This document shows positions 3,580 to 51,848 of a stretch of 64,000 bases of DNA, piece after piece (positions within the stretch are counted from its first letter, which is position 1; every line of letters begins with the position of its first letter). The stretch is from Gammaproteobacteria bacterium. Its GTDB lineage: Bacteria; Pseudomonadota; Gammaproteobacteria; Pseudomonadales; Pseudohongiellaceae. The stretch spans positions 62,001-126,000 of the forward strand of contig JAQWZF010000031.1 of the NCBI GenBank assembly GCA_029253585.1, given 5' to 3'. The notes under the pieces were generated by a model, which worked only from the letters and a program-made list of their open reading frames with translations, was not told where the DNA came from and made no database searches. The translations under genes were made by a program, and so were the position numbers.

Positions 3580-4080
3580 TTAGTTAGTGGGCCGTTGATA
3601 GCGATAGGAGCCGGTAGAGGGCAGAATTTCAACGCGATCGCTCACTTTAGATGCGATCGTCTCTGATGGGGGTATAGCGCCGGATCCGAAGGCGAAAGTA
3701 AACTCACCATTCACCAAGCCTCTTCTATCATCTGTTACTGACCAGCGAGCGATATAGTATTCCGATTTGGGTAATTCTCCCGGTATCGGCAAGACGAAGC
3801 TGTGACTAAATCGTGAAGGGTCGTATTGAAAATCGATATTAATCCATTCATCTTCCGCGGTATACAGCGCGAGCTTTAGCAGCCGCACGTCTACCCGAAA
3901 ACTCATAGTGATCATTTGTGGAGGTTCGGTTAGTACAGAATCGTCCGGGGGAAAGGTTACGCCAGGAGTTAGAACGCCATGGCTATGCTGCGCTAATGAA
4001 TTGGTAGATGACAGCAAGCCCAGCAACGCGCCAAGGACGAGAAGACTCACTTTTCGTTGAAGTGTATTCATGCTCATCAA
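3580..4080 (-). CDS. CopC-domain copper-binding-like periplasmic protein
   Basis: Signal peptide, then QHSHGVLTPGVTFPPDDSVLTEPPQMITMSFRVDVRLLKLALY...GEFTFAFGSG, CopC-like; N-terminal HSH retained. Confidence 0.7.
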   Translation of the reverse strand: MMSMNTLQRKVSLLVLGALLGLLSSTNSLAQHSHGVLTPGVTFPPDDSVLTEPPQMITMSFRVDVRLLKLALYTAEDEWINIDFQYDPSRFSHSFVLPIPGELPKSEYYIARWSVTDDRRGLVNGEFTFAFGSGAIPPSETIASKVSDRVEILPSTGSYRYQRPTN

Positions 4081-4191: not shown

Positions 4192-4989
4192 TCAGCCGAA
4201 ATAGACCATGCACTGCCGGGTCAGTGCTATCAATCGGCCTGACTCGTCGTATATCTTGCCGGATTGCTGCGTATAACCATCTGCCGCAGCATCGATTTCG
4301 AATTCCATATAGAACCATTCACTGCTTATTAACTCCGGCGCCTCTATAAATTCTAAGGACCAGCTCAGCGAGCTTGCCGGGACGGGAGGTTTATCAAAAT
4401 GAGATAACAGTACCGGTGGCGGAATATCGGCTATCGCTAATAGCTTCTCTACGGGAAAGCGGGAAACATCTTGCTTGTGCCGAACCCATAGATTTAGAAA
4501 CGGCTTGTAGCTACTGGAGAAGGGCATGCCACCACCAATCCAGCAGCCATCGAAGTACTGCAAGAAATGGGGCGTCTGTTTGCTATTGTCGCTAAAAGCT
4601 ATGCCGCTATTTCTGTCCGGTAATTCCTTTATGGCCTGACGGGGGGGCTCGAAGGCCTCGCGCGAATTACCAAAAGCTGCCATGGCTTGAAGGGCAATCT
4701 GCCCCTGTGATATTACGTTCGCACTGCACTGAGATACGTTCTTGCCCTGGCGAAGAAGAGAAGCCTCTACCGTAACTTCGCCGGCAGCGACCGGTGCGAT
4801 AAAAGAGACCATTAGGGAACGAATGGTCTGTGCTTGAGCTAGTTGTTTTCTCATGGCGGTTACCGCAAATGCAGCTGCCAGTCCACCGTAAGCTGAGCGA
4901 CCCTGTGACCAGTTCTCGCTAAAATGTGTGGTGTTAGAATTGCTATTCTCGAGCTCGTCGAGTATTAGATCTATGTTTGTACCCTGCAT
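4192..4989 (-). CDS. Acyl-CoA thioesterase family protein (double hotdog, TesB-like)
   Basis: TTHFSENWSQGRSAYGGLAAAFAVTAM and MVSFIAPVAAGEVTVEASLLRQGKNVSQCSANV typical of thioesterase-like superfamily proteins. Confidence 0.8.
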   Translation of the reverse strand: MQGTNIDLILDELENSNSNTTHFSENWSQGRSAYGGLAAAFAVTAMRKQLAQAQTIRSLMVSFIAPVAAGEVTVEASLLRQGKNVSQCSANVISQGQIALQAMAAFGNSREAFEPPRQAIKELPDRNSGIAFSDNSKQTPHFLQYFDGCWIGGGMPFSSSYKPFLNLWVRHKQDVSRFPVEKLLAIADIPPPVLLSHFDKPPVPASSLSWSLEFIEAPELISSEWFYMEFEIDAAADGYTQQSGKIYDESGRLIALTRQCMVYFG

Positions 4990-5171: not shown

Positions 5172-5792
5172 TTGAATCCGTACTCAATCCAAAAAGTCTG
5201 TATAGCTTGTCTGAGCCTAGGGCTATGGCATTCTGCCATTGCTCAACCCCCCGTTGGAGGCCTCTATGCTCAAGGTGAAGATGTTACAGGAATTAGCATC
5301 GAAACAGAAACCTCACCCGCAGATGACAGTGTCCTGGCCGCGGCTCCCGAGCGACTGCGTTTGGAGTTTCCCTACGCTGTGCGATTGGTTAAATTGACTC
5401 TTAGAAATGAGTTACGGGATTGGGTGGATATTAGCTTTCGCTACGATCCGACGGTACAAGAGGAATTTTTTTGGGATGTACCGCAACTCAATATTGCTAC
5501 CTATTACACGGCAGACTGGGCGATTCTTGCCGAGAATGACTTTCTAGTCAGAGGGAGTTTTAGCTTTTCCTTCGGGCCGGATGCGCAGGCCCCATCATTA
5601 ACAAAGGCTGCAGAAGCCCTGCTAATAGATACGCAAAACGGTGGGCCCGATTCCGATGTTCGCTTTGTTACTCCACCACGTACGAATATAATCCTCAATC
5701 AGGATAAACCTCGCTACGATCCTCCCTTCACAATTAAGCTAGAGGCTGAAGAGGCGGAGCAATCACAAGATTCCTCCACCGCGCCGCGCTAA
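5172..5792 (+). CDS. CopC-like secreted protein lacking histidines in the mature region
   Basis: TSPADDSVLAAAPERLRLEFPYAVRLVKLTLRNELRDWVDISFRYDP parallels the 3580-4080 product; the only His (WHSAIA) is in the signal peptide. Confidence 0.6.
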   Translation: MNPYSIQKVCIACLSLGLWHSAIAQPPVGGLYAQGEDVTGISIETETSPADDSVLAAAPERLRLEFPYAVRLVKLTLRNELRDWVDISFRYDPTVQEEFFWDVPQLNIATYYTADWAILAENDFLVRGSFSFSFGPDAQAPSLTKAAEALLIDTQNGGPDSDVRFVTPPRTNIILNQDKPRYDPPFTIKLEAEEAEQSQDSSTAPR

Positions 5793-5795
5793 CTA

Positions 5796-6743
5796 TTAAG
5801 GGCTTACGTTAACCGTAATGCGCTGATCGTGATACAGCCCGCCATCATCGCCTCGGGCCCACAGCACATACTCGCCAGGCTCTGAAAATTTGGCCCTCAC
5901 TTCGTAGATGCCATCCTCTGGAATGGGAGGAGGGGTCCAAAGGGCTCCCCATGGTGAGTTTGCTGAAGTTCTTGTGTCTTCCCAGGGTTTTACCTGCGCT
6001 GGCTCGAAGCTAACCTCACCGGGGCCTCGGTACTTATTCCAAGATAGGAACAGCCCGTTAGTCTTACCTACTGTAGTTCGGCGTGGTGGTCGCATCATGC
6101 GTTCCTGAACCGATGTACTTGTTCGTGCGGAGGTGGTGCTGCGAGGCTTGGGTAAGCCATCATCGGCCACATGTGTCGTGATGATAATTTCTTCACCGAC
6201 TTTTGCGTTTCTCGTAATGCCCCCATTCATAGTTTCACCCTGAACGGTGACTACGGGAGCAATATTGGCTCGGGATTCGGGGCTGCTAGTTCCAGCGCCT
6301 AAAGAACCGGTCTCTGAGGCGATAACCATATTATCGATCAGATAGTCAGCGGTCAGTGTGCCATAGGCCCTGTTGGTTTCGCCATTGTGAGTTAGTGTCC
6401 AAACTAGCTCACGGTCGCCCCAGTCTGACGGCACAATCACCTCAAAGGTGAACCGATTACGCCTCGGTAAAAAATGTGTAGGCTGTCCTCGATCGGCATC
6501 TCCGGGAGTAAAGAAGTTACTTTCTCCGACGTCAATGTCAGGCTGTTCTTCCCAATTCTCATTCATATATCCGAAAATAAGAGTATAGGTCCCATCTTCG
6601 TTGGCGCGCCATCCTTCATAACCCGGCTCGATCTCAGCGCCTGTACGATAGCTAAGCTGCGCCGTTGCTGGCTGGGTGCTCAGTACCGAGAAGAGAAGCA
6701 ACCCAGTTAGCCATTTTTTCTTATTAATCGAATAATGGTTCAT
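5796..6743 (-). CDS. Secreted protein of unknown function, paralog of 6933-7865
   Basis: Signal peptide MNHYSINKKKWLTGLLLFSVLSTQPATAQ; shares GYMNENW.EQPD..VG..NFF.PGD.DRGQPTHFLPRRNRFTFEV.VPSDWG with its neighbour. Start set at the second Met. Confidence 0.85.
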   Translation of the reverse strand: MNHYSINKKKWLTGLLLFSVLSTQPATAQLSYRTGAEIEPGYEGWRANEDGTYTLIFGYMNENWEEQPDIDVGESNFFTPGDADRGQPTHFLPRRNRFTFEVIVPSDWGDRELVWTLTHNGETNRAYGTLTADYLIDNMVIASETGSLGAGTSSPESRANIAPVVTVQGETMNGGITRNAKVGEEIIITTHVADDGLPKPRSTTSARTSTSVQERMMRPPRRTTVGKTNGLFLSWNKYRGPGEVSFEPAQVKPWEDTRTSANSPWGALWTPPPIPEDGIYEVRAKFSEPGEYVLWARGDDGGLYHDQRITVNVSP

Positions 6744-6893
6744 GTCTTTCCCCTGGCACAATTTTTTTATTAGTTAGTAATAACGTGTTTTAAGCATAAC
6801 GACTGAGAAGATCATGGTGTTGACTTTGATCAATTCTATCTAGACCAGTTTTAATGAATTTTCACCTGCTGAAATATTCAAATTTCAGGCAAT

Positions 6894-6920
6894 AAAAAGG
6901 GGCGAATAACGCCCCTTTTT
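6894..6920. terminator. Rho-independent terminator (11-bp stem)
   Basis: AAAAAGGGGCG-AATAA-CGCCCCTTTTT perfect inverted repeat directly downstream of the minus-strand gene 6933-7865. Confidence 0.9.
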
Positions 6921-6932
6921 ATAATTAGCTAA

Positions 6933-7865
6933 TTACTCGGTAACATTCACTGTGATGTAGCCATCGGTATAAAGGCCACCATCGTCGGCACGCCCCCAGA
7001 GAATATAAGTGCCTGGTGCATCGAAGGTCGCGGTTGCCTCATACAGACCATCCTCTGGCGCTTCTGGTGGTAACCAGAGTGCACCCCAAGGAGAATTGGC
7101 AGATGTTCTAGTGTCTTCCCAAGGCTTGGGCATGGGAGGGTCAAATGTCACATTGCCTGGACCTCTATATTTGTTCCAGGATAAGAACAGTCCGTTAATC
7201 TTACCTACGGTAATGCGGGTAGGGGGCCGCATCATGCGTCTCTGTAGAGCGTCCTCACTCGTAGTGCTTTCTCGTCTAGCTTTCGGCAAACCGTCATCAA
7301 TTACTTGCGTGACGAAGCTTATCTCTTCGCCGACGCGTGCAGTGCGAATATCGTCACCCTGAATAGCGACAACTGGCGGAATATTGGCACGAGACTCTGG
7401 ACTACTGGTGCCTGCACCTAGTGAACCGGTCTCGGAAGCGATGACCATATTATCCACCAGATAATCGTCTTTCAGCGTTGCATAAGCTTTACGCTCAACA
7501 CCATTTACGTTCAGCGTCCAAACCAGCTCGCGTTCACCCCAATCGGAAGGTACAACTACCTCAAAGGTGAAGCGGTTTCTGCGCGGCAAGAAATGGGTTG
7601 GCTGTCCCCTGTCGGTATCACCGGGAGAGAAAAAATTATTGTCTCCAACAGCGACGTCCGGTTGCTCGGTCCAGTTCTCATTCATGTAACCAAACATGAA
7701 GCTGAACGTGCCGTCTGCATTTGGGCGCCAGCCTTCATAGGCAGGTTCGATGTGCTGTCCGAACTGATAGGTGTCGGCAAGGGCGGCAGTCGATGTGACT
7801 ACTATAAAAATAGCAATCAGCAGGGCGTTAACCCTGCTGATTGATTTACTAATTAACCTACTCAT
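6933..7865 (-). CDS. Secreted protein of unknown function, paralog of 5796-6743
   Basis: Signal peptide; extended identity to the neighbour including LVDNMVIASETGSLGAGTSSPESRANI and INGLFLSWNKYRGPG. Confidence 0.85.
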   Translation of the reverse strand: MSRLISKSISRVNALLIAIFIVVTSTAALADTYQFGQHIEPAYEGWRPNADGTFSFMFGYMNENWTEQPDVAVGDNNFFSPGDTDRGQPTHFLPRRNRFTFEVVVPSDWGERELVWTLNVNGVERKAYATLKDDYLVDNMVIASETGSLGAGTSSPESRANIPPVVAIQGDDIRTARVGEEISFVTQVIDDGLPKARRESTTSEDALQRRMMRPPTRITVGKINGLFLSWNKYRGPGNVTFDPPMPKPWEDTRTSANSPWGALWLPPEAPEDGLYEATATFDAPGTYILWGRADDGGLYTDGYITVNVTE

Positions 7866-7884
7866 CTTGTTGCTACAACCTCGA

Positions 7885-9324
7885 CTAGTTGCCAGCTACG
7901 TCGTTCGCTGCTTCGCTTTCAGTTTCGGCGATAGGAGCGACTAGAGGAGCCAGACAGAGTGGGCAGCCAATAACATGGTCATTGGGTCCCAAATTCAGCA
8001 CCTGGCGTCTCTCTTCCATAGCTTCGAAGAATTGATCATCTGTTAAGGTCACTCGAATGCCCAGATCGATGAACATATTCGTTACTGAACGGTTGCCAGA
8101 ACCCTGCCAGTTGCGCGGATCAGGAACGTTCGGATTAGTCTCCGTGTTGTTCATGTAGCCGACGATATGCAAGATAGTGCCCTTAGGTAGAAGAGGGGCT
8201 GCGTGGTCTTCATAAGGATAGCCGCGCACCCAGTTGTGGTCGTAGCCTACGCAAGAAAGCGTTTCTACTGTGTAGCCCCAAATGGCCTCAAGACACATGC
8301 GCTCACCAGGAGCATGCAGGTGTGGCTCGAATGTTATGACCTTAGTGTGCTGATTAAGCACCGTGTAGGCGTGTAGCTCCTGGTCCTTCTCGTTACCCGT
8401 AATACTGATATCAACGCCATTACCCAACCCGATGAAGGCATTCTGGTATTTCGGCTTGTAATCCTCAGGGTGGAAACGAAAACCAACCTCAAGGTGACCG
8501 GTGGTATCACGTCCGTTGGAGTGCAGATGCACGGAATCGGAAACGATTGATGAACCCGCCTTCAACAGGCGACCCGCATCTTCGTCGAAGATGTCAGCGT
8601 TTCTGCCGACTTCGTGAACTGGCCATGGAATGGAGAAGCTGCCATCACGCTCGCCGTTCTCATTAAGCTGGGCTGTACCCCAAATCATGTGGTGGAAGAT
8701 ATAGGCGCCACCAACAGTATCTCGGCCAGTGCCTGCCTGATTGTCTACATCGTTGACTTCAACGACTTCGACTGACTTCACATAGCGATCTTCTTCCAAG
8801 CCTGTAGGAATGTAATCGATCTCACCCCACCAGTCAGGTGTGCCCGCTAATTTGGTTATATCGTTCATGACAACCACAAGGTCAGGCTCGCCAGCCTTCC
8901 ACTTCAGACTGTCATCGAAGACCAAAGGAGTAGGTGAGTCTGCTTCGCTGCCTTTTGGCGTGCCAGTGCGTGCCCAGGTAGAGATAAGAGCTAGTTCTTC
9001 ATCGCTTAGAGAAGGGTCATCCTTGTATGCCTGGATACCGATGTTTTTCTCCATGTACCAAGGAGGCATGGCGCCAGCACGGTCACGCAGAGCTGTCTTG
9101 TACTCGATCAAACCGGCAAAAGGTGCAACCTGATCATAAGTCACCAAAGGCATTGGTCCAGCACCGCCTGGGCGGTGACAGTTCTGACAGCTGCGCTGCA
9201 GAATTGGTTCAATGTCCTTATGGAATGTAACTTCGCTCGACTGTGCTAGCGATATTCCAGGGATGGACATTGCTGCTGTGACTGCAACACTGCCTAGCAG
9301 TGATTTAGCGGAAATAATTCGCAT
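7885..9324 (-). CDS. Secreted cytochrome c / PHM-like copper type II monooxygenase fusion
   Basis: Signal peptide; CQNCH heme motif in EPILQRSCQNCHRPGGAGPM; PHM-like copper-site candidates FHHMIWG, VHLHSNG and EPHLHAPGERM. Confidence 0.75.
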   Translation of the reverse strand: MRIISAKSLLGSVAVTAAMSIPGISLAQSSEVTFHKDIEPILQRSCQNCHRPGGAGPMPLVTYDQVAPFAGLIEYKTALRDRAGAMPPWYMEKNIGIQAYKDDPSLSDEELALISTWARTGTPKGSEADSPTPLVFDDSLKWKAGEPDLVVVMNDITKLAGTPDWWGEIDYIPTGLEEDRYVKSVEVVEVNDVDNQAGTGRDTVGGAYIFHHMIWGTAQLNENGERDGSFSIPWPVHEVGRNADIFDEDAGRLLKAGSSIVSDSVHLHSNGRDTTGHLEVGFRFHPEDYKPKYQNAFIGLGNGVDISITGNEKDQELHAYTVLNQHTKVITFEPHLHAPGERMCLEAIWGYTVETLSCVGYDHNWVRGYPYEDHAAPLLPKGTILHIVGYMNNTETNPNVPDPRNWQGSGNRSVTNMFIDLGIRVTLTDDQFFEAMEERRQVLNLGPNDHVIGCPLCLAPLVAPIAETESEAANDVAGN

Positions 9325-9577
9325 AGTTGCTACTCCTCATAGCCTGTTCGGTCTCAAATCGGTTTAAATTGATTGGGGTTTAGTAAGTATTCGTGCCGGT
9401 TCTTATAAGCTCGGGAAGGATAGCATTTTTAGGAGATTAATTGAATATAGAAGTATCCCAAATCCACTTAAAATTGATCTGCTGGTCAGTGCTATAAGCC
9501 TTAACTTCGCAAAATCTACCGAAAACCCGATAATTCGTCAGTTTTTTGGCGTTTGCTAGCCTAAAATCTGGCTAAAG

Positions 9578-10345
9578 TTAGCGTCCGCGCAACAAGGCCC
9601 AAAGATTACTGCTTGCTAGGAAGCTTATGAAAAGAACTAACAAAGCGAAGCTAAACCATTGAAGTGCATAAGATAAATTTTGGTTTACGTCGGCGTTCAC
9701 AGCGGGCCAATGGCGAACTAGAACCCCTGCCTGCTCCTCGGTGAGCCGAACCTCGAAGGGAAACAACGGCTCACCAAGAATATCGGCAATTACGTCGATT
9801 TCGAGGCTGCGTATGCGCAGAGGCCACTGCGAGGCATCGATTTGGCTTGCCAATACCCGCGCATTTTCCTCGGGAACGAATATCTGAGCGGTAATCTCGA
9901 CCGGACCCGATGCCGGGCGCAGATCTGGTGGGGTATCTGGTGGCAATATGCCGGTAGTCCAGCCGCGGCTCACCAGAACCAATTGGCCGTTGCTTTCGAG
10001 CCTAAATGGCGTCACGACCCCATAGCCGATCATCCCCTGAAAGAACTCTGCTAGCAGCAAGATAGAGCGCTCATTTACGAACTCCCCTTTCAGTGAGACA
10101 TGGCGGTTCTGCAAATCGGGATTTGCCCGATGCAGGTGGCCGGCCGGAATAATCTCTATGGGCTCAGCATTTTGACTGGACTCGATTACCATGGCTTGCT
10201 GTGCTGCAACCTTCTCGGCCGCGCGGTCTAGCTGCCAGAGCCCTAGTCTGGCAAAGGCGGCAAAAGTCATAAACACGCAGGCGGCGAAGAGCCAGTTTAT
10301 CTTGATGTGAAAAATTCCGATGGAATGTTCTGAGCGAAGTTGCAT
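9578..10345 (-). CDS. SURF1 family protein
   Basis: RLGLWQLDRAAEKVA near the N-terminal TM, SRGW, and NLSYALQWFSFALLVL C-terminal TM, typical SURF1 topology and motifs. Confidence 0.8.
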   Translation of the reverse strand: MQLRSEHSIGIFHIKINWLFAACVFMTFAAFARLGLWQLDRAAEKVAAQQAMVIESSQNAEPIEIIPAGHLHRANPDLQNRHVSLKGEFVNERSILLLAEFFQGMIGYGVVTPFRLESNGQLVLVSRGWTTGILPPDTPPDLRPASGPVEITAQIFVPEENARVLASQIDASQWPLRIRSLEIDVIADILGEPLFPFEVRLTEEQAGVLVRHWPAVNADVNQNLSYALQWFSFALLVLFISFLASSNLWALLRGR

Positions 10346-10499
10346 AAGAGCCTATTTGAAGAGAGGTTGAACTTTGAATTCGGTAACTGTTTCTAGCCGC
10401 GCTGCTTGTGTCTGGCCAGCCGGCGCATCTGCAAGCGCAGGAAGACTAATGCAGAACTAGCTTTAATTCAATCAATACGCGTACTGAAAACTTTAGGCC

Positions 10500-11006
10500 T
10501 TAACACCAGAGACACCAATGATAGGGAGGGCGATAGTACGTGATAAGTCGGCCACAGATAATCACCGCGCACCAGCAGGCAAGAGAGATAGCGGCTATGG
10601 CCTTTGCTCGAAATAACATCCTAGAAATAGCGTCTCCTGATTTCACCTCATTCGCCGTAGTGGCATAGAAAAACACCATATTAATGCCTGCGATAAGCAT
10701 GAAGAAGAACTTACTTTGTACGGCGGGATTGTAGATATATTGATCTGGGGCCGTGCTTAGGAACATGATGCCAGTCACTACATTTAACGAGTAGCCTGCG
10801 ACTCCAGCGGGGACTAAGCGATGCAGTTCGGCGAGGGATATTTCTTTTGCAAAACCCATCATGCGCAAGTCGAACAAACCGACGGTACCGACGAGCAAGC
10901 ACAATCCGAAAAAATGGATGGATTCGGCGACGGGCCAGCCCCATGGAGAGTTCATGAAAGAGTAAATGCCAGTCGCTTGAGAGAAGCTGAGTAGGATCTC
11001 TATCAT
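10500..11006 (-). CDS. DUF6644-type small integral membrane protein
   Basis: PVAESIHFFGLCLLVGTVGLFDLRMMGFA; multiple TM segments. Confidence 0.65.
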   Translation of the reverse strand: MIEILLSFSQATGIYSFMNSPWGWPVAESIHFFGLCLLVGTVGLFDLRMMGFAKEISLAELHRLVPAGVAGYSLNVVTGIMFLSTAPDQYIYNPAVQSKFFFMLIAGINMVFFYATTANEVKSGDAISRMLFRAKAIAAISLACWCAVIICGRLITYYRPPYHWCLWC

Positions 11007-11012
11007 GATCGC

Positions 11013-11531
11013 TTAAAAAAACCGTGAGGCGAGAAGGGTGTTGTGGGTATAGGCAAGGAAGCGGCCTGCGGTTAATGTGACAATCCAAAGCAACACTGAG
11101 ACATAGGCCAGGTTAATCGTTCGGCGATCGTTAGAGACTTTGGACCTGTCGAAGAAAGTCGCTTGAAAGTGTCTGCTGATTAATAAGCCTAGAGTCAGTG
11201 CGGCTAGTTTTAGGTAGAAGACCGGGTTCGTTAGGGCCTTTGCCGGGTAAGCTAATAGCAACGCCATTCCAGAAATAAATATGAATACGGCGGCATACCA
11301 GTGCAAGCTATAGAAGCGGCCTAGTGCTGCTAGCTCTATCCGGGGGGCAAAGCCAACCAGGCGCAGGTTGATTGCGAAGTTTATCCCTACGACAAATGCC
11401 ATAGCTAATGAGTGCACAGTCAGTGCGCTAAAGAACGCAAAGCCGGATTCGCGCATCCAAATACTAAGCGCTGTTTCTTCTAATCTCGCTAGTGTTTCCA
11501 GTTTTAATAATCCTATTTCAGAGCCCGGCAT
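11013..11531 (-). CDS. DUF6644-like small integral membrane protein
   Basis: LTVHSLAMAFVVGINFAINLRLVGFA; TM-rich; 6 bp upstream of the similar gene 10500-11006. Confidence 0.6.
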   Translation of the reverse strand: MPGSEIGLLKLETLARLEETALSIWMRESGFAFFSALTVHSLAMAFVVGINFAINLRLVGFAPRIELAALGRFYSLHWYAAVFIFISGMALLLAYPAKALTNPVFYLKLAALTLGLLISRHFQATFFDRSKVSNDRRTINLAYVSVLLWIVTLTAGRFLAYTHNTLLASRFF

Positions 11532-12647: not shown

Positions 12648-13481
12648 ATGCGTGCTTTCATCGCTAGACCTGAACGTAAACACCCAGGATTAGCCGCCCT
12701 TCTGGCGTCAGCGCTGTTGATGCTAGGTGCTGCATGTCTCGGGGCCGAGAATGATTCTGTGCCAAGAACGGCAGACTCAAAGCCGGACTTCAATGGTATT
12801 TGGCAGGCTATTGGCAGCGCACATTGGAATATCGAGCCCCGCGCCGCAGATTTTGGTCCTGTAGTGGAGTTAGGTGCCATAGGCGCTATTCCCGGTAGCC
12901 TGGGCATTGTTGAGGGCGGATTAATCCCCTATACGGCCGAAGCCAGGGCTAAGCAGCAGGAAAATAGGGCAGACTGGCTGGCTTTGGATCCGGTCGTGAA
13001 ATGCTATATGCCTGGAATTCCGAGGGCGACCTATCTACCGTTCCCTTTTCAAATAATACAGTCTCCCGATCACGTGGTTATGGCTTATGAGTTTGCCAGT
13101 GCGAGCCGTATTGTCTATATGGATAGACCAGACTTCGAAGCACCGATTTTTAGTTGGATGGGGCATTCACGCGGCCGAATCGAGGGGGATAGTTTGGTCA
13201 TAAATGTGAGCGATCAGGTGCCAGATACATGGTTGGATCATGCGGGTAATCATCATAGCGATGCCTTGCGTGTAACAGAGCGCTATACCCATCTGGGGCC
13301 GAATACGCTTATGTATGAGGCGACGCTTGAAGATCCCAATGTCTATAGTTCGGCATGGACGCTTAAACTCCCGCTCTACCGGAGGCTGGATGAGAACATG
13401 CAATTACTGGAATACAAGTGCGTTGAATTTACCGAGGAGCTTATTTACGGGCATCTGCGCAAGGGTGTGGATACCGAATAG
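12648..13481 (+). CDS. Secreted protein of unknown function (same family as 50820-51848)
   Basis: N-terminal hydrophobic segment; KPDFNGIWQA; IIQSPDHVVMAYEF; GRIEGDSLVINVSD; ERYTHLGPNTLMYEATLEDPNVYSSAW. Confidence 0.75.
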   Translation: MRAFIARPERKHPGLAALLASALLMLGAACLGAENDSVPRTADSKPDFNGIWQAIGSAHWNIEPRAADFGPVVELGAIGAIPGSLGIVEGGLIPYTAEARAKQQENRADWLALDPVVKCYMPGIPRATYLPFPFQIIQSPDHVVMAYEFASASRIVYMDRPDFEAPIFSWMGHSRGRIEGDSLVINVSDQVPDTWLDHAGNHHSDALRVTERYTHLGPNTLMYEATLEDPNVYSSAWTLKLPLYRRLDENMQLLEYKCVEFTEELIYGHLRKGVDTE

Positions 13482-31203: not shown

Positions 31204-32853
31204 TTAGTTATCTTTCAGGCCGAAGGTATACACCACATTTCCTGATGCAATAGTCACGAACTGCTTTCCGTCAACGGCGTATGTCATAGGTGCTGCATGA
31301 ACTCGTGCACCCAGGGAGATATGCCACAGCTCTTCGCCAGTAGCTGCATCCAGGGCGAAGAAATAGCCGTCCGCGCTGCCCGTGAAAACGATTCCACCTG
31401 CTGTTGTCGTAATGCCTGCGGATGAGCGTGGCATTATCGGAAATTCCCATTCAATCTGTGCAGTTGCAGGATTGATGGCGCGAATGGAGCTGTGGAATGC
31501 GTCCATAGGTTGATTGTAGCGACCGCCACCACCGGTAAAGCGTTCGCCTTCTTCGTAGTCTTCGTCGCGTTTAAAGAATTCTTGTTCGCCGTCGAATGAG
31601 GTCACGTAGAACAAACCGGTCTGTTGGCTGTAGCCGGGAGAGTACCAGTTAGTTGCGCCAACGATAGGAGGGGACACCAGAATGCCCTCATAGGTAGGTG
31701 CCATGCCGGGAACGCGAATGGGGCGGCCATTAGGGTCTAATCCCTGAGCCCAGGTCTGTGATGCATAAGCATCTCCTTCCAGAAATTCGCCAGTCACGCG
31801 ATCGATAGTGTAGAAGAAGGCGTTACGGTTTGCCCACATCATTACCTTGCGTGTGCTGCCCTGGTATTCGATATCCGCGAGAATGGGTACTTGGATAGAG
31901 TCGTAGTCGTGCACATCGTGAGGCGTGAATTGAAAGTGCCAGGCGATCTCGCCCGTATCGCCATCCAGTGCCAGGGCGGAATCTGAGTAGAGGTTGTCGC
32001 CCAGGCGAACGTCTCCATTCCAGTCTGGCCCGGGATTGCCTGTACCCCAGTAAATCAGGTTCAGATCCGGGTCATAGGAGCCCGTAAGCCAGGTGGCTGC
32101 GCCGCCAGTTTTCCAGGAGTCACCAGACCAGCTGTCGTTGCCGGGCTCACCTGAACCTGGAATAGCGTAGGTGCGCCACTCCAGTTCGCCGCTAGCAGGA
32201 TCATAGGCATCGATGAAACCGCGAATTCCAAATTCGCCCCCGGCGATTCCGGTTACGACCTTGTCTTTGACAATTAACGGTGCAGCAGTCTTGCTGTATC
32301 CAGCTTCGTAGTCAGCCACCTCGGTGTCCCAAAGAACATTACCCGTGCGAGCATCTATGGCAACGAGGTGAGCATCCAAAGTGCTCATGAAGAGTGTCTC
32401 ACCTAGTATAGCCACGCCGCGGTTGTTACGCCCGCAGCAGATGCGCAAATCATCGGGTAGCTCGTGATCATAACGCCAATACACTCGACCGGTGCGAGCA
32501 TCTACAGCGGTTAGATTGCTGGGCGCTTCGGTGATAAACATGATTCCATCGACCACAGTTGGCACTGTTTCCGCTCGGTCTATGACCGGTATCTGGTATG
32601 ACCATTTCATTTCAAGTTCGGCCACGTTGCTCTTGTCGATCTGATCGAGGCGGCTGTAGCGCTGACTGTCCAGAGTGCCGGAGTACATCATCCAGTTCTC
32701 GGGTTCATCTTCAGCATTTATAAGGCGTTCCCAAGTAACTGGACTAAAAGCCGGCGTGATAACGGTCTGAAATTCGTCTTCCTGCGCGAAAACGGGCAGG
32801 GTCAGACCTAAGCCAAGGCATAGAGGGGCTAGCAGAGCGATGGATCGATTCAT
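31204..32853 (-). CDS. PQQ-dependent (quinoprotein) dehydrogenase
   Basis: Beta-propeller W-motifs, vicinal cysteines RICCGRNNRG, WGTGNPGPDWNGDVRLGDNLYSDS, FTPHDVHDYDS; signal peptide. Confidence 0.9.
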   Translation of the reverse strand: MNRSIALLAPLCLGLGLTLPVFAQEDEFQTVITPAFSPVTWERLINAEDEPENWMMYSGTLDSQRYSRLDQIDKSNVAELEMKWSYQIPVIDRAETVPTVVDGIMFITEAPSNLTAVDARTGRVYWRYDHELPDDLRICCGRNNRGVAILGETLFMSTLDAHLVAIDARTGNVLWDTEVADYEAGYSKTAAPLIVKDKVVTGIAGGEFGIRGFIDAYDPASGELEWRTYAIPGSGEPGNDSWSGDSWKTGGAATWLTGSYDPDLNLIYWGTGNPGPDWNGDVRLGDNLYSDSALALDGDTGEIAWHFQFTPHDVHDYDSIQVPILADIEYQGSTRKVMMWANRNAFFYTIDRVTGEFLEGDAYASQTWAQGLDPNGRPIRVPGMAPTYEGILVSPPIVGATNWYSPGYSQQTGLFYVTSFDGEQEFFKRDEDYEEGERFTGGGGRYNQPMDAFHSSIRAINPATAQIEWEFPIMPRSSAGITTTAGGIVFTGSADGYFFALDAATGEELWHISLGARVHAAPMTYAVDGKQFVTIASGNVVYTFGLKDN

Positions 32854-32855
32854 GC

Positions 32856-33668
32856 TTAATTCTCCTTTCGCAGTGAAAATAGATAGGCCACGAGGTCATC
32901 TACTTCGCTGTCGGATAAAATCTGTGTATAACTGGGCATGGTCGATTCTTCGACCCGCTCGATGGAGGCTAGTTGTCTCTTTGGATAAGACCAAAGATTC
33001 GATTCGGCATCCATTATTCGAAGTGAGAAGCTGTCTTCGTTCATGCGCAGGCCTTCTCTTGTGATGCCCTCGCTATCGGTTACGCGCATTGTCCACCAGC
33101 GCGGAGCAACCTCTTGGTGCGGATCGAGAATATCGGTCAGTAATTCTTCCGGGTTACGTCGCTCCCCAATGCGAGAAAGATCCGGCCCTAGCCTGCCTCC
33201 TTGCCCGTCAATCATGTGGCAGCTATTGCAGTCACCTTTATTCGCAAACAGTCTGGCTCCGGCCACCACGGAGCCGGGCAAATCGATATTTGCAGGGTCT
33301 GTGCTGAGTGAGCCTATATAGGCGACGAGTTGCCATACCTGAGAGTCGGGTAGGTCGGCGGCTACTGGGAGCATTGCAGTTCCAGGTACTCCCGTGCGTA
33401 TGATATTGAAGATACCTACATCTGAGCTGGCTCTAGATAGCCTGCCTGTTAAGTCCGGTGCGCCGGTTTCGTCATTGCCCTTCGCATCGAAACCATGGCA
33501 GCGGGAGCATTGCCGCTCGAAGTATTTCAAGCCTGCATTGATGTCGAAGCGCGTGTTGTAGAGATTGCCTGCATCTTCGGCGTTGCCACCGCTAGCGGCA
33601 AAGAGTGTGCCGCAAATGGCGATCGCCAGTAGATGCTTTATTTGAGTGCTTATACTGCTCATGCTCAC
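32856..33668 (-). CDS. Diheme cytochrome c
   Basis: Two CxxCH motifs (CSRCH, CNSCH); signal sequence; ends 3 bp upstream of the PQQ dehydrogenase start. Confidence 0.93.
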   Translation of the reverse strand: MSMSSISTQIKHLLAIAICGTLFAASGGNAEDAGNLYNTRFDINAGLKYFERQCSRCHGFDAKGNDETGAPDLTGRLSRASSDVGIFNIIRTGVPGTAMLPVAADLPDSQVWQLVAYIGSLSTDPANIDLPGSVVAGARLFANKGDCNSCHMIDGQGGRLGPDLSRIGERRNPEELLTDILDPHQEVAPRWWTMRVTDSEGITREGLRMNEDSFSLRIMDAESNLWSYPKRQLASIERVEESTMPSYTQILSDSEVDDLVAYLFSLRKEN

Positions 33669-39668: not shown

Positions 39669-40838
39669 TTAATCGGCAAGAACGTAACGGTCACGTCCCT
39701 CGGCCTTTGCCAGATAGAGGCATTGGTCGGCCTTTTCCACGAGTTGATCGAAAGAGAGACCCTCCGAATGCGTGGCGATACCCGCGCTAAAAGTAACAGG
39801 AGATTTCTCCTTTACCACGCTGCGGATACGTTCAACTAGAATCACGGCTTCATCCAGACCTGTAGAGGGCAGCACGAGAAGAAACTCTTCGCCGCCGTAG
39901 CGCACGACCAGGTCTTGATCTCTGGAGCAGTCCTTCAAGATCTCGGATATCGTTATGAGTAAGTCGTCACCAGCTTTGTGGCCGAACTCATCGTCGTACA
40001 GTTTGAAATTATCAATATCCAGTATTACGACACTGAAAGGGTCCTTGCGACGCAATGAAGAGGGAAGCAGTGTCTCTACCAATAAATAGAGGCGGCGACG
40101 GTTCCCTAATTCGGTTAATGGGTCTGTGAGAGACTGATGTTCGTTCTCGATTCTAAGGACTATGTTTTCGACCAGTAATCGGTTTTGGCGCGGTATCAAG
40201 CCTGACAGGAGCAGGTAGGCAATGAGCAGCATAAAGCCTAGGGTGTTGAATAGAGGTTCTTGCACCCAGAACGCCTTGGCAATCAGGGGTAGCATGCTCG
40301 CGTTCATAAAGAGGAAGATAACGGGCAGCGAAGTACTATAGGAAAGAATGCTTCCCGATATAAGCGTCATCACGATCACGGCATAGAACAGAAGCGCGTC
40401 GAATCCAAACTCCCCTTAGGGGATGAATACGGCACTGGAGAAGCAAAGAAACGGTACGATGCTGCAATAGAAGAAGTAGTTCTCCCAGGGCTTAATATTG
40501 CTTGCGGTGATTTCTCTTTTCTTCAGCTTCTTTGCAAACTGCAGGGAAAGAAGAATTCGGGGAATATAGGCGATACCAACTGCGATGGCCCAGGGATAGG
40601 CGACGCTCACAGTAGCGAGCTAATTAATGGTATAAGCAAAGAAGAACACGCCGGTAGCAATGCCAAAGTAGCCTGCGTTGGTATTAGCATACAAGACGCT
40701 AATTCGAGTGAAGTCCAGTTCTGGGTGGCTATCTTTGCTATTCACTGACGTACCCTGATTATTTTTATTAAGGCCGGTTGGTCGCCGTATTAAATAATAT
40801 GACCAACCCATCGTCCTGCCAGCATTACACCAGACCAA
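39669..40838 (-). pseudogene. Membrane-anchored GGDEF (diguanylate cyclase) protein interrupted by in-frame TAG and TAA
   Basis: Three ORFs share one frame: ...GVFFFAYTIN-TAG(40620-40622)-LATVSVAYPWAIAVG...SSAVFIP-TAA(40416-40418)-GEFGFDALLFYAVIVMTLIS...; C-terminal DPLTELGNRRRL and RYGGEEF intact. 5' limit approximate. Confidence 0.75.
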
Positions 40839-41284
40839 AGGAGGAGTGATAGGCTTCCGATAACTTTAAGTTGCATGGGAGTTGAAGAGGCGCCATCCCA
40901 TCGGGCAATGTTCTTGTAAATACGGAAATGGAAATATGCCATGTTAAGACCGGCAAGAGCGAGCAGAACTATCTTCCATTGAAATGCGGGATTTACCACG
41001 TGGGAAGCCGCACGCGTGATGAACATGCCAAGGCCCGTTACGGTGGCTATAACAAACGCTCCCCAGGTCCAGGGAACGAGTTCTTTCGACAGGGTGCTTA
41101 TAGGGTACTTAACTGCTGCGAACCCAAGCAGTCTCAAATCCACCATCAGTATAGACCCGACAACAAAGGCCGCTGCAATCACATGAATAGATTCTAGGAA
41201 TGGGAACCACCAGGTTCCCCCTATCGTCCAGGATAGTGACCAGTTCTCTACGTCGATCCACTTAGGTGAGTTTAGAAATCCCAT
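40790..41284 (-). CDS. DUF6644-like small integral membrane protein
   Basis: PFLESIHVIAAAFVVGSILMVDLRLLGFA; GRWVGHI C-terminus. Confidence 0.65.
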   Translation of the reverse strand: MGFLNSPKWIDVENWSLSWTIGGTWWFPFLESIHVIAAAFVVGSILMVDLRLLGFAAVKYPISTLSKELVPWTWGAFVIATVTGLGMFITRAASHVVNPAFQWKIVLLALAGLNMAYFHFRIYKNIARWDGASSTPMQLKVIGSLSLLLWSGVMLAGRWVGHII

Positions 41285-41384
41285 TTCTATTACCAGCTTC
41301 GTCCCATTCGGTTTATCACGAATTTAATTAAGTGCAATTTCACTGCCCAATCTCTAGGCTTCGCTCTAGATCTTCAGCATTAAT

Positions 41385-41822
41385 TTAAGTTTCAAGGCTA
41401 GCGAGCCCAGCAGCCACATTGGGAACAGTGAATAGATTCGTTGCAGCGACCTGTCCGAGCACAGTAAAAATGGACTGCAAGGCGAGAGCCCCTTCGTTGC
41501 TTAGAGCAAGTCGTGTTTCGTTAAAACAACGAGTGCCAAGCAGGTCAATCAGCAATTCTGCCATTTCCCGATTCGCCTGCTCGCGGGCGGACATTGATAC
41601 ATCGGCTATTTCTGCGACAGCAGGATGTAGTGCCATGGCTGTAAACATCCATTTGACCAAGCTCAGTTTGCCCTCTTCTGTAGTGGAGCTTAGCAGGCAA
41701 TCAGAAAGCGCATCACTGTACTCGCCTGCAAAAGTAGCCGGAGAGAGCGTCAAGAGTCCCAGAATAAGAGGTATCTGCAGTTTTCGCTGTCTTCGAAGAG
41801 TAGGTTTTTTAGGGTTGGGCAT
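41385..41822 (-). CDS. Hypothetical secreted protein
   Basis: Signal peptide ...PLILGLLTLSPATFAG; 145 aa; lies between two DUF6644-like genes. Confidence 0.65.
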   Translation of the reverse strand: MPNPKKPTLRRQRKLQIPLILGLLTLSPATFAGEYSDALSDCLLSSTTEEGKLSLVKWMFTAMALHPAVAEIADVSMSAREQANREMAELLIDLLGTRCFNETRLALSNEGALALQSIFTVLGQVAATNLFTVPNVAAGLASLET

Positions 41823-41834
41823 TTCGGCGGCTTC

Positions 41835-42362
41835 CTAAGCAGGGTAGTAGATGTATTCTACGTAAGCGATCCAGCGTCCAGCCATGGCCACCATAAGCCA
41901 AGACATAAGCGACAAGAGAGCGACGGCCCTCGCACTCCACAGGCGTTTCGAACTTGACTCCCAATAGGCTTCCTCTCGTCGGCTCATCAGGTGAAAGAAT
42001 AGGGTCAGCAGCACCGCACAGATAAGAAAGCTCACCTTCCAGCCGAAAATCGGGTTGTTAAAATACCTAAGGGGGCGCCCAAATAGAAAGAAGGCGCCCG
42101 AAACAAGATTCGACGTCAGGGCCCACCACAGCCATGGCATTAATCTGCGAGTCATCTCGGTAATATTCTGACTGGGGACGGCCAGGCCTAGGATACGCAG
42201 GTTGAGTATCACCACGCTGCCCATCACCACGGCGATTCCGAGGATATGCACGGTCTGAATTATGGGAGGAAACCCTGGAATCGTGCTCAGGGCCCAGAGC
42301 GCACCCGACTGCAGGAAGCTACCGTCTAGCAGGGTGCCAATGCTGGTGAAATAATCGGGCAA
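41835..42362 (-). CDS. DUF6644-like small integral membrane protein
   Basis: IQTVHILGIAVVMGSVVILNLRILGLAV; AGRWIAYVEYIY C-terminus. Confidence 0.65.
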   Translation of the reverse strand: MPDYFTSIGTLLDGSFLQSGALWALSTIPGFPPIIQTVHILGIAVVMGSVVILNLRILGLAVPSQNITEMTRRLMPWLWWALTSNLVSGAFFLFGRPLRYFNNPIFGWKVSFLICAVLLTLFFHLMSRREEAYWESSSKRLWSARAVALLSLMSWLMVAMAGRWIAYVEYIYYPA

Positions 42363-50819: not shown

Positions 50820-51848
50820 CTACTGTTCTATAGCGCGCTCGACACCGTCTCTCTCCATAGCCTCTAGTCTTCTAGCGCCAGCGAGTATGCCAATGATGCC
50901 GTAGTTGCCTTCGTGGCAAGCGTATTCGTATACGGGCTCATCCATGCGTGAGAGAGGGTAGGCACCTGACCACTGTGCGCTATATACAGTAGGGTCATCT
51001 ACGGTAAAGCCGTAGATGATTTTGTTGTTCGCGCCGCGTTTGAAAGTTTCTATAACGGTTAGGTTTTCAGTAGGTGCTCCGCGATAGGTGATCCAGGGAT
51101 TGTAATTCTTGGTCTCTACCACTAGCGTGTCGCCTTCCCAGCGTCCAATCGAATCACCCATCCACTTCTGGTGTACCTCGCCGGCTGGGTTTCTTTCGTC
51201 GGCAATCTTGATGATTCTTGAGTCGTGAGCCATTTCGACGATGATGTTTACATACCCAGGTGACTGCACGATCTGCATATGGCTGTTATACATTACCGGG
51301 GTCATAACCGGCCCCGATGAGTTACCGAAGGCTACCAGACAGCGCTCTCCAAGGCCGCGACCTTCCGGGCCTGCATTTCTATCAGGTCGATTCGCTCGTA
51401 ACTCCTGCATTTTTTCTCTAAAACCCGCTACTCGCTCGGGGATACGACCATTCGGTGGATCGATGATGGCCGATGTTCGAAATTCGCCGTCGATCGTAGG
51501 CAGGAACATGCCGCGGTCTGTCCAGAATAGGTCGTAGTTACCCACCGGAGGCAGGGCTTCGAGTGCGGGAGCGGGGCGATTGGGGTCTAAGGGCTCGTTG
51601 TCTTCTTCTACCGCTTGCTGAGCCTGCTTTTCCAAGAGCGTGGCTTCTTCTTCGGTATAGGCTTGTTTTGTGCCTAATTCGCTAGGCCGCTCGAAGGGCA
51701 TTACTGTGGCGTTCTTCCAGTTCCCTTGCAGGTCGGGTACGCCCCATTCGGTATAGGGTGTCTGAAATTCTTGCCCAAAACTAGCACTAGCCAGGCTTAG
51801 CGTAATGCTGGCTGAAAGAACGGATAGTAAAGAAATTCGCGGCTCCAT
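50820..51848 (-). CDS. Secreted protein of unknown function (same family as 12648-13481)
   Basis: Signal peptide; VPDLQGNWKNATVMPFERP; MQIVQSPGYVNIIVEMAHDSRIIKI; GDSIGRWEGDTLVVETKNYN; FTVDDPTVYSAQW. Confidence 0.8.
   Translation of the reverse strand: MEPRISLLSVLSASITLSLASASFGQEFQTPYTEWGVPDLQGNWKNATVMPFERPSELGTKQAYTEEEATLLEKQAQQAVEEDNEPLDPNRPAPALEALPPVGNYDLFWTDRGMFLPTIDGEFRTSAIIDPPNGRIPERVAGFREKMQELRANRPDRNAGPEGRGLGERCLVAFGNSSGPVMTPVMYNSHMQIVQSPGYVNIIVEMAHDSRIIKIADERNPAGEVHQKWMGDSIGRWEGDTLVVETKNYNPWITYRGAPTENLTVIETFKRGANNKIIYGFTVDDPTVYSAQWSGAYPLSRMDEPVYEYACHEGNYGIIGILAGARRLEAMERDGVERAIEQ

Follow-up and report, generated by a model that had tools for sequence, protein, structure and literature searches.

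We analysed a 64,000-nucleotide stretch of contig JAQWZF010000031.1 (the window), from a gammaproteobacterium of the family Pseudohongiellaceae, in which an earlier reading of the DNA (the original prediction) had placed a copper/heme oxidative locus. The locus is centred on a reverse-strand gene for a protein of 479 amino acids (7885-9324, the PHM gene), which, according to an AlphaFold2 model, Foldseek searches and the kept ligands, carries a signal peptide, a c-type heme domain and a PHM/DBH-like dicopper monooxygenase domain. On the same strand lie the genes of two secreted proteins, PART1 (6933-7865) and its tandem paralogue PART2 (5796-6761, likely ATG start at 6743), and an RNA hairpin is located within PART1 (7814-7843, reverse strand). 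Two CopC-domain genes, a thioesterase-like gene, SURF1 and two membrane-protein genes surround them. The coordinates of the open reading frames named earlier were verified and the whole gene set was as stated, while the second CopC-like gene (3580-4080) and the hairpin were absent from the original prediction.

The motifs CQNCH, FHHMIWG, VHLHSNG and HLHAPGERM, previously read in the PHM gene, were confirmed and correspond to C46-H50, H211-H212, H266, and H335 with H337, respectively. The heme c domain covers about residues 31-125 (8950-9234), and the only Pfam match of the gene was a weak one to Cytochrome_CBB3, below the cut-off. We read ligand conservation from an alignment of 59 relatives, and found that C46, C49 and H50 of the CxxCH motif (9175-9189) and M86 (9067-9069), the probable axial ligand, were invariant, as expected of a c-type cytochrome. 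The PHM-like core spans about residues 140-440 (8005-8907), an assignment based on Foldseek and ligand conservation, and contains all six ligands of the two copper sites (HH and H; HxH and M). The CuH ligands are H211 and H212 (8689-8694) and H266 (8527-8529), and the CuM ligands are H335 and H337 (8314-8322) and M417 (8074-8076). H211, H266 and M417 were invariant, H212 was kept save for one unread residue, and H335/H337 were kept in 57 of the 59 relatives, both exceptions being redoxin-fused paralogues. The histidines proposed as copper ligands therefore stood, but the methionine of 'GERM' did not: the conserved methionine at the place of the CuM ligand of PHM is M417, in 'SVTNMF' (59/59). 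The ligand spacing was similar to that of rat PHM (55/69/80 residues in the window protein versus 65/70/70), for which we compared the positions that we take to be the CuM ligands of the rat enzyme. The CuH ligands of rat PHM are H107, H108 and H172 (PMC6123673).

The AlphaFold2 model of the PHM gene product had a mean predicted local distance difference test (pLDDT) score of 77. Foldseek searches of the PDB with this model returned only DBH or PHM among hits 1-31, with human DBH first (E 1.3e-10), and the double jelly roll was matched with a probability of 1.00 and a template modelling score of about 0.52-0.61 on PHM. The heme c domain and the PHM-type fold with paired copper-ligand sets thus passed the structure check proposed for them, and the model indicates that gene 7885-9324 encodes a c-type heme domain fused to a dicopper monooxygenase fold of the PHM/DBH type. 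Compared with PHM and DBH, the window protein is bacterial, has a fused c-type heme instead of an ascorbate supply, is accompanied by a dedicated partner and shows only about 12% identity. It also differs from PHM proper in having E, I and L at the places of R240, N316 and Y318, which we take to be the substrate-binding residues of rat PHM; judged from these residues, peptidylglycine is therefore an unlikely substrate.

The two secreted proteins, PART1 and PART2, had been described as closely similar, and we found them to be 67% identical. They belong to one family, PART, with tandem immunoglobulin-like (Ig-like) domains: PART1 was assigned by its adjacency to the PHM gene, its AlphaFold2 model and Foldseek, and the PART model (pLDDT 79) showed two Ig-like beta-sandwiches. 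Conservation spans the whole length of PART, and no His, Met or Cys was conserved at 90%, which rules out PART as a copper carrier; Foldseek matched Ig-like structures only, which rules it out as an enzyme or a DOMON-type domain. Other families of the order, class and phylum were sampled and yielded no PART, and a plasmid search gave no match for either PHM or PART.

We compared 80 related loci, of which the full ones comprised 32 orthologous to this locus and 21 of a second type, whose surrounding genes are quite different. PART adjoined PHM in 31 of the 32 full orthologous loci and in all 21 second-type loci, mostly with an intergenic gap of 0-36 bp, so the conserved linkage by which the original prediction was to be checked was found; a second PART copy was present in 7/32. 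The own genome carries nine PART genes at eight loci, and all nine adjoin PHM or its neighbouring PART (binomial p ~7e-18). For the eight own-genome pairs, the identity matrices of PHM and PART varied together (Mantel r 0.95, permutation p 1.5e-4), indicating that the pair was duplicated as a unit. Across 79 genomes of the family, PHM matches numbered 9 or more in each of the 57 with PART and 0-2 in the 22 that lack it. The arrangement turned up in dozens of genomes and is not a chance pattern. These results indicate that the real unit of the locus is the PHM-PART pair.

The same pairing bears on another explanation, that PART is the protein substrate and PHM oxidises one of its residues post-translationally, as the original prediction had partly allowed. 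One-to-one operon pairing and co-divergence would look identical if PART were the substrate. However, PART is conserved full-length as two folded Ig-like domains and not around one exposed site, two copies per PHM occur in only the 7 loci mentioned above, and solo PART genes lie beside seven-transmembrane AraC-type regulators without PHM, so we do not favour this explanation and consider it quite unlikely.

Among the matches listed, 118 of 144 PART genes had a listed PHM gene at most 1.2 kb away. Seven of the remaining PART genes were examined at their loci. One lies directly next to a PHM fragment where the contig ends. The other six adjoin a gene for a membrane protein that carries a helix-turn-helix of AraC type, and two of these six loci also hold a CopC gene with a kept N-terminal His. 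At loci L266-L271 and L274, the neighbour of PART is a membrane regulator of AraC type (HTH_18), in some cases with CopC present and PHM missing, and in genome G376 the gene order is CopC, PHM, PART, regulator. The solo genes show that PART can act apart from PHM, and their position beside AraC-type regulators in PHM-less loci suggests that PART may also serve signalling. The whole system could then be one of copper or redox sensing and handling, with the PHM fold as copper sensor or store, PART as a periplasmic relay to the membrane AraC-type regulator and CopC as carrier. Besides these sister-genus loci, the kept H32 and H34 of the protein encoded at 3580-4080 (CopC_B) and a canonical CopC-CopD pair just beyond the window would suit such a role, but PART lacks conserved ligands of the metal type, nearly all PHM paralogues retain every catalytic ligand, and a copy number of 20 or more per genome fits a group of enzymes acting on many substrates better than it fits a sensor. 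We therefore regard copper or redox sensing and handling as an unlikely function.

The hairpin in PART1 was first flagged by a scan for terminator-like structures. It begins 22 nucleotides inside the gene after the start codon, has a 12-bp stem and is followed here by a T-rich, terminator-like run. In 28 of 42 orthologous loci the stem scored better than synonymous-codon shuffles (p <= 0.02; mean score 9.3 versus 4.6), compared with 2/26 second-type loci in the same test. The orthologous stems usually start about 20-27 nucleotides past the annotated start, a few loci having a misplaced start call. Counted by gene, first-PART genes stood out in this respect (27 of 43), and the other genes of the locus, with 0-2 each, did not. 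Compensatory changes were found at 10 of the 12 pairs, with a covariation score of 0.50 against 0.21 for shuffled alignments; this alignment consisted of 18 loci picked for having the stem, which favours pairing, so the comparison with codon shuffles gives cleaner evidence. Rfam gave no convincing match for the hairpin. We infer that it probably controls PART relative to PHM.

Taken together, we rather favour, at somewhat better than even confidence, a model of a secreted (periplasmic) oxygenase with two components, PHM and PART. PHM would bind two coppers in its PHM/DBH-type fold, activate O2 and hydroxylate a small molecule at a C-H bond, with the fused c-type heme passing electrons to the coppers and replacing ascorbate. 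PART, made from the same operon, would form a complex with PHM as a dedicated accessory subunit for docking, substrate capture or stabilisation, not as an enzyme, and the hairpin at the start of PART1 would set the PHM:PART ratio. CopC_B may supply the copper. The PHM gene product is thus probably an ascorbate-independent secreted hydroxylase with an accessory subunit. Several observations weigh against this model. The confidence of the PHM structure model is moderate (pLDDT 77), and the window protein has no Pfam match to PF01082 or PF03712 up to E 1. Such a match serves detection and is not a biochemical property, but for its lack we class the protein as a PHM-like, divergent variant and not as PHM. 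The sequence profile of the family failed to reach the PHM chains in the PDB, and a profile of the PHM paralogues reached PHM at E 0.16 only. Solo PART genes without PHM also occur in some genera. Because sequence searches of solved structures missed PHM, the family assignment rests on the fold and on the paralogues: Cu2_monoox_C (PF03712) matches homologous paralogues of the same genome, one of which (C24:5296) passes the cut-off (29.8 versus 23 bits).

The neighbouring genes on the far side of PHM are SURF1 (9578-10345, reverse strand) and two membrane-protein genes. SURF1 had been recognised correctly (PF02104, E 1.6e-32, 114 bits versus a cut-off of 23.4). The two DUF6644-like genes of the original prediction fared less well: the protein of 10500-11006 (reverse strand) scored 24.9 bits against DUF6644 (PF20349), below the cut-off of 27, and that of 11013-11531 (reverse strand) scored 14.9 bits, its best match being DUF2214 (22.5 bits, cut-off 34.1). 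Another pair of DUF6644 membrane proteins, scoring over the Pfam cut-off, lies at 40790-42362 of the window. The SURF1 gene is the only copy in the genome, and the cytochrome oxidase (cox) operon, on contig C15, is without SURF1, so that the gene at this locus likely serves the cytochrome c oxidase of the genome. A same-strand cluster with SURF1 occurs in 30 of the 32 full orthologous loci, as it would if SURF1, CopC, the DUF proteins and PHM jointly served the assembly of a heme-copper oxidase. However, SURF1 and the DUF genes occur in 0 of the 21 second-type loci, SURF1 is located elsewhere in sister genera with PHM, and in PHM-less sister genomes it lies near cox genes. An assembly locus is therefore very improbable, and SURF1 and the DUF genes are ruled out as core parts. 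The thioesterase-like gene (4192-4989, reverse strand), assigned to the locus by conserved synteny only, is present in 31/32 full orthologous and 0/21 second-type loci. SURF1, the DUF pair, the thioesterase gene and other genes are syntenic within the genus, and the second-type loci share almost none of these neighbours.

Both CopC-domain proteins passed the PF04234 cut-off. The one previously noticed, CopC_A (5172-5792, forward strand, convergent with PART2), matched with 28.7 versus 23.3 bits (E 2.7e-6), in agreement with the original prediction; no His or Met was conserved in its 45 orthologues, so judged by its sequence it has lost the conserved metal ligands of CopC. It occurs in 1 of the 21 second-type loci. 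CopC_B (3580-4080, reverse strand, E 1.7e-5) has the predicted mature N-terminus HSHG, with the cleavage site read by eye, and keeps of the CopC ligands only this N-terminal His pair (H32 in 39/39, H34 in 38/39). Just upstream of the window, at L124:4118-5478, a canonical CopC gene is followed by CopD. We conclude that the PHM-PART system does not include SURF1, the DUF pair or CopC_A, which are its neighbours, contrary to the oxygenase module proposed originally.

About 19 heme-PHM places were counted in the 3.3 Mb genome, and among relatives the copy number reaches 20 or more per genome. One class of own-genome paralogues, of 560-620 amino acids, has the same heme c and PHM core but differs in an extra N-terminal thioredoxin-like (redoxin) domain and in having no same-strand paired PART. 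Pyrroloquinoline quinone (PQQ) alcohol dehydrogenases and cytochromes c adjoin several PHM-PART paralogues, which suggests that the products of several PHM paralogues are alcohols and fits hydroxylation followed by alcohol oxidation. At 31204-33668 the window holds a gene for a PQQ-dependent dehydrogenase and, after it, one for a cytochrome c with two domains. NHL-repeat propellers also lie near PHM-type genes: of 17 in the genome, 8 are at most 10 kb from such a gene (p 6e-5). One propeller matches the rat lyase PAL at 7.7e-26. Propellers near heme-PHM paralogues include those at L114:5562-6632, L116:6706-7899, L117:5108-6160, L119:10946-12139, L111:11537-12733 and L112:14222-15346. This recalls PAM, which joins PHM and PAL, but here the NHL propellers are encoded by separate genes beside other paralogues, and no NHL match was found near this locus. 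The regions 12648-13481 and 50820-51848 of the window and L114:6718-7794 encode secreted proteins that have a 'DFNGIW/DLQGxW' motif and belong to no Pfam family; relatives of the first turn up repeatedly near PHM loci.

Oxygen-activating copper domains of this kind are most familiar from enzymes that make hormones in animals. PHM-type enzymes have been described as mainly eukaryotic (PMC8812541), and the main text of a North Sea study on these clades is silent on copper (PMC8371827). In the literature available to us, our search found no paper on bacterial heme-PHM fusions and no account of this protein family. More broadly, and with a little less than even confidence, we propose a large, so far uncharacterised class of bacterial dicopper monooxygenases made of two subunits: a fused c-type heme would replace ascorbate, a lineage-specific Ig-like subunit would be obligatory, an operon-internal RNA would control the subunit ratio, and the class would have expanded in marine relatives of Pseudohongiella and OM182 to 20 or more heme-PHM genes per genome. 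The PHM-PART pair is a clear two-gene unit for expression, and offers a natural test of how a dicopper hydroxylase can draw its electrons from a heme instead of ascorbate. Heme-PHM with PART probably represents a large family of oxygen-using enzymes of marine bacteria that has so far escaped study. A marine lineage whose genomes hold 20 or more heme-fused copies, many of which have a partner gene of their own, points to extensive extracytoplasmic oxidative chemistry that is still unexplored.

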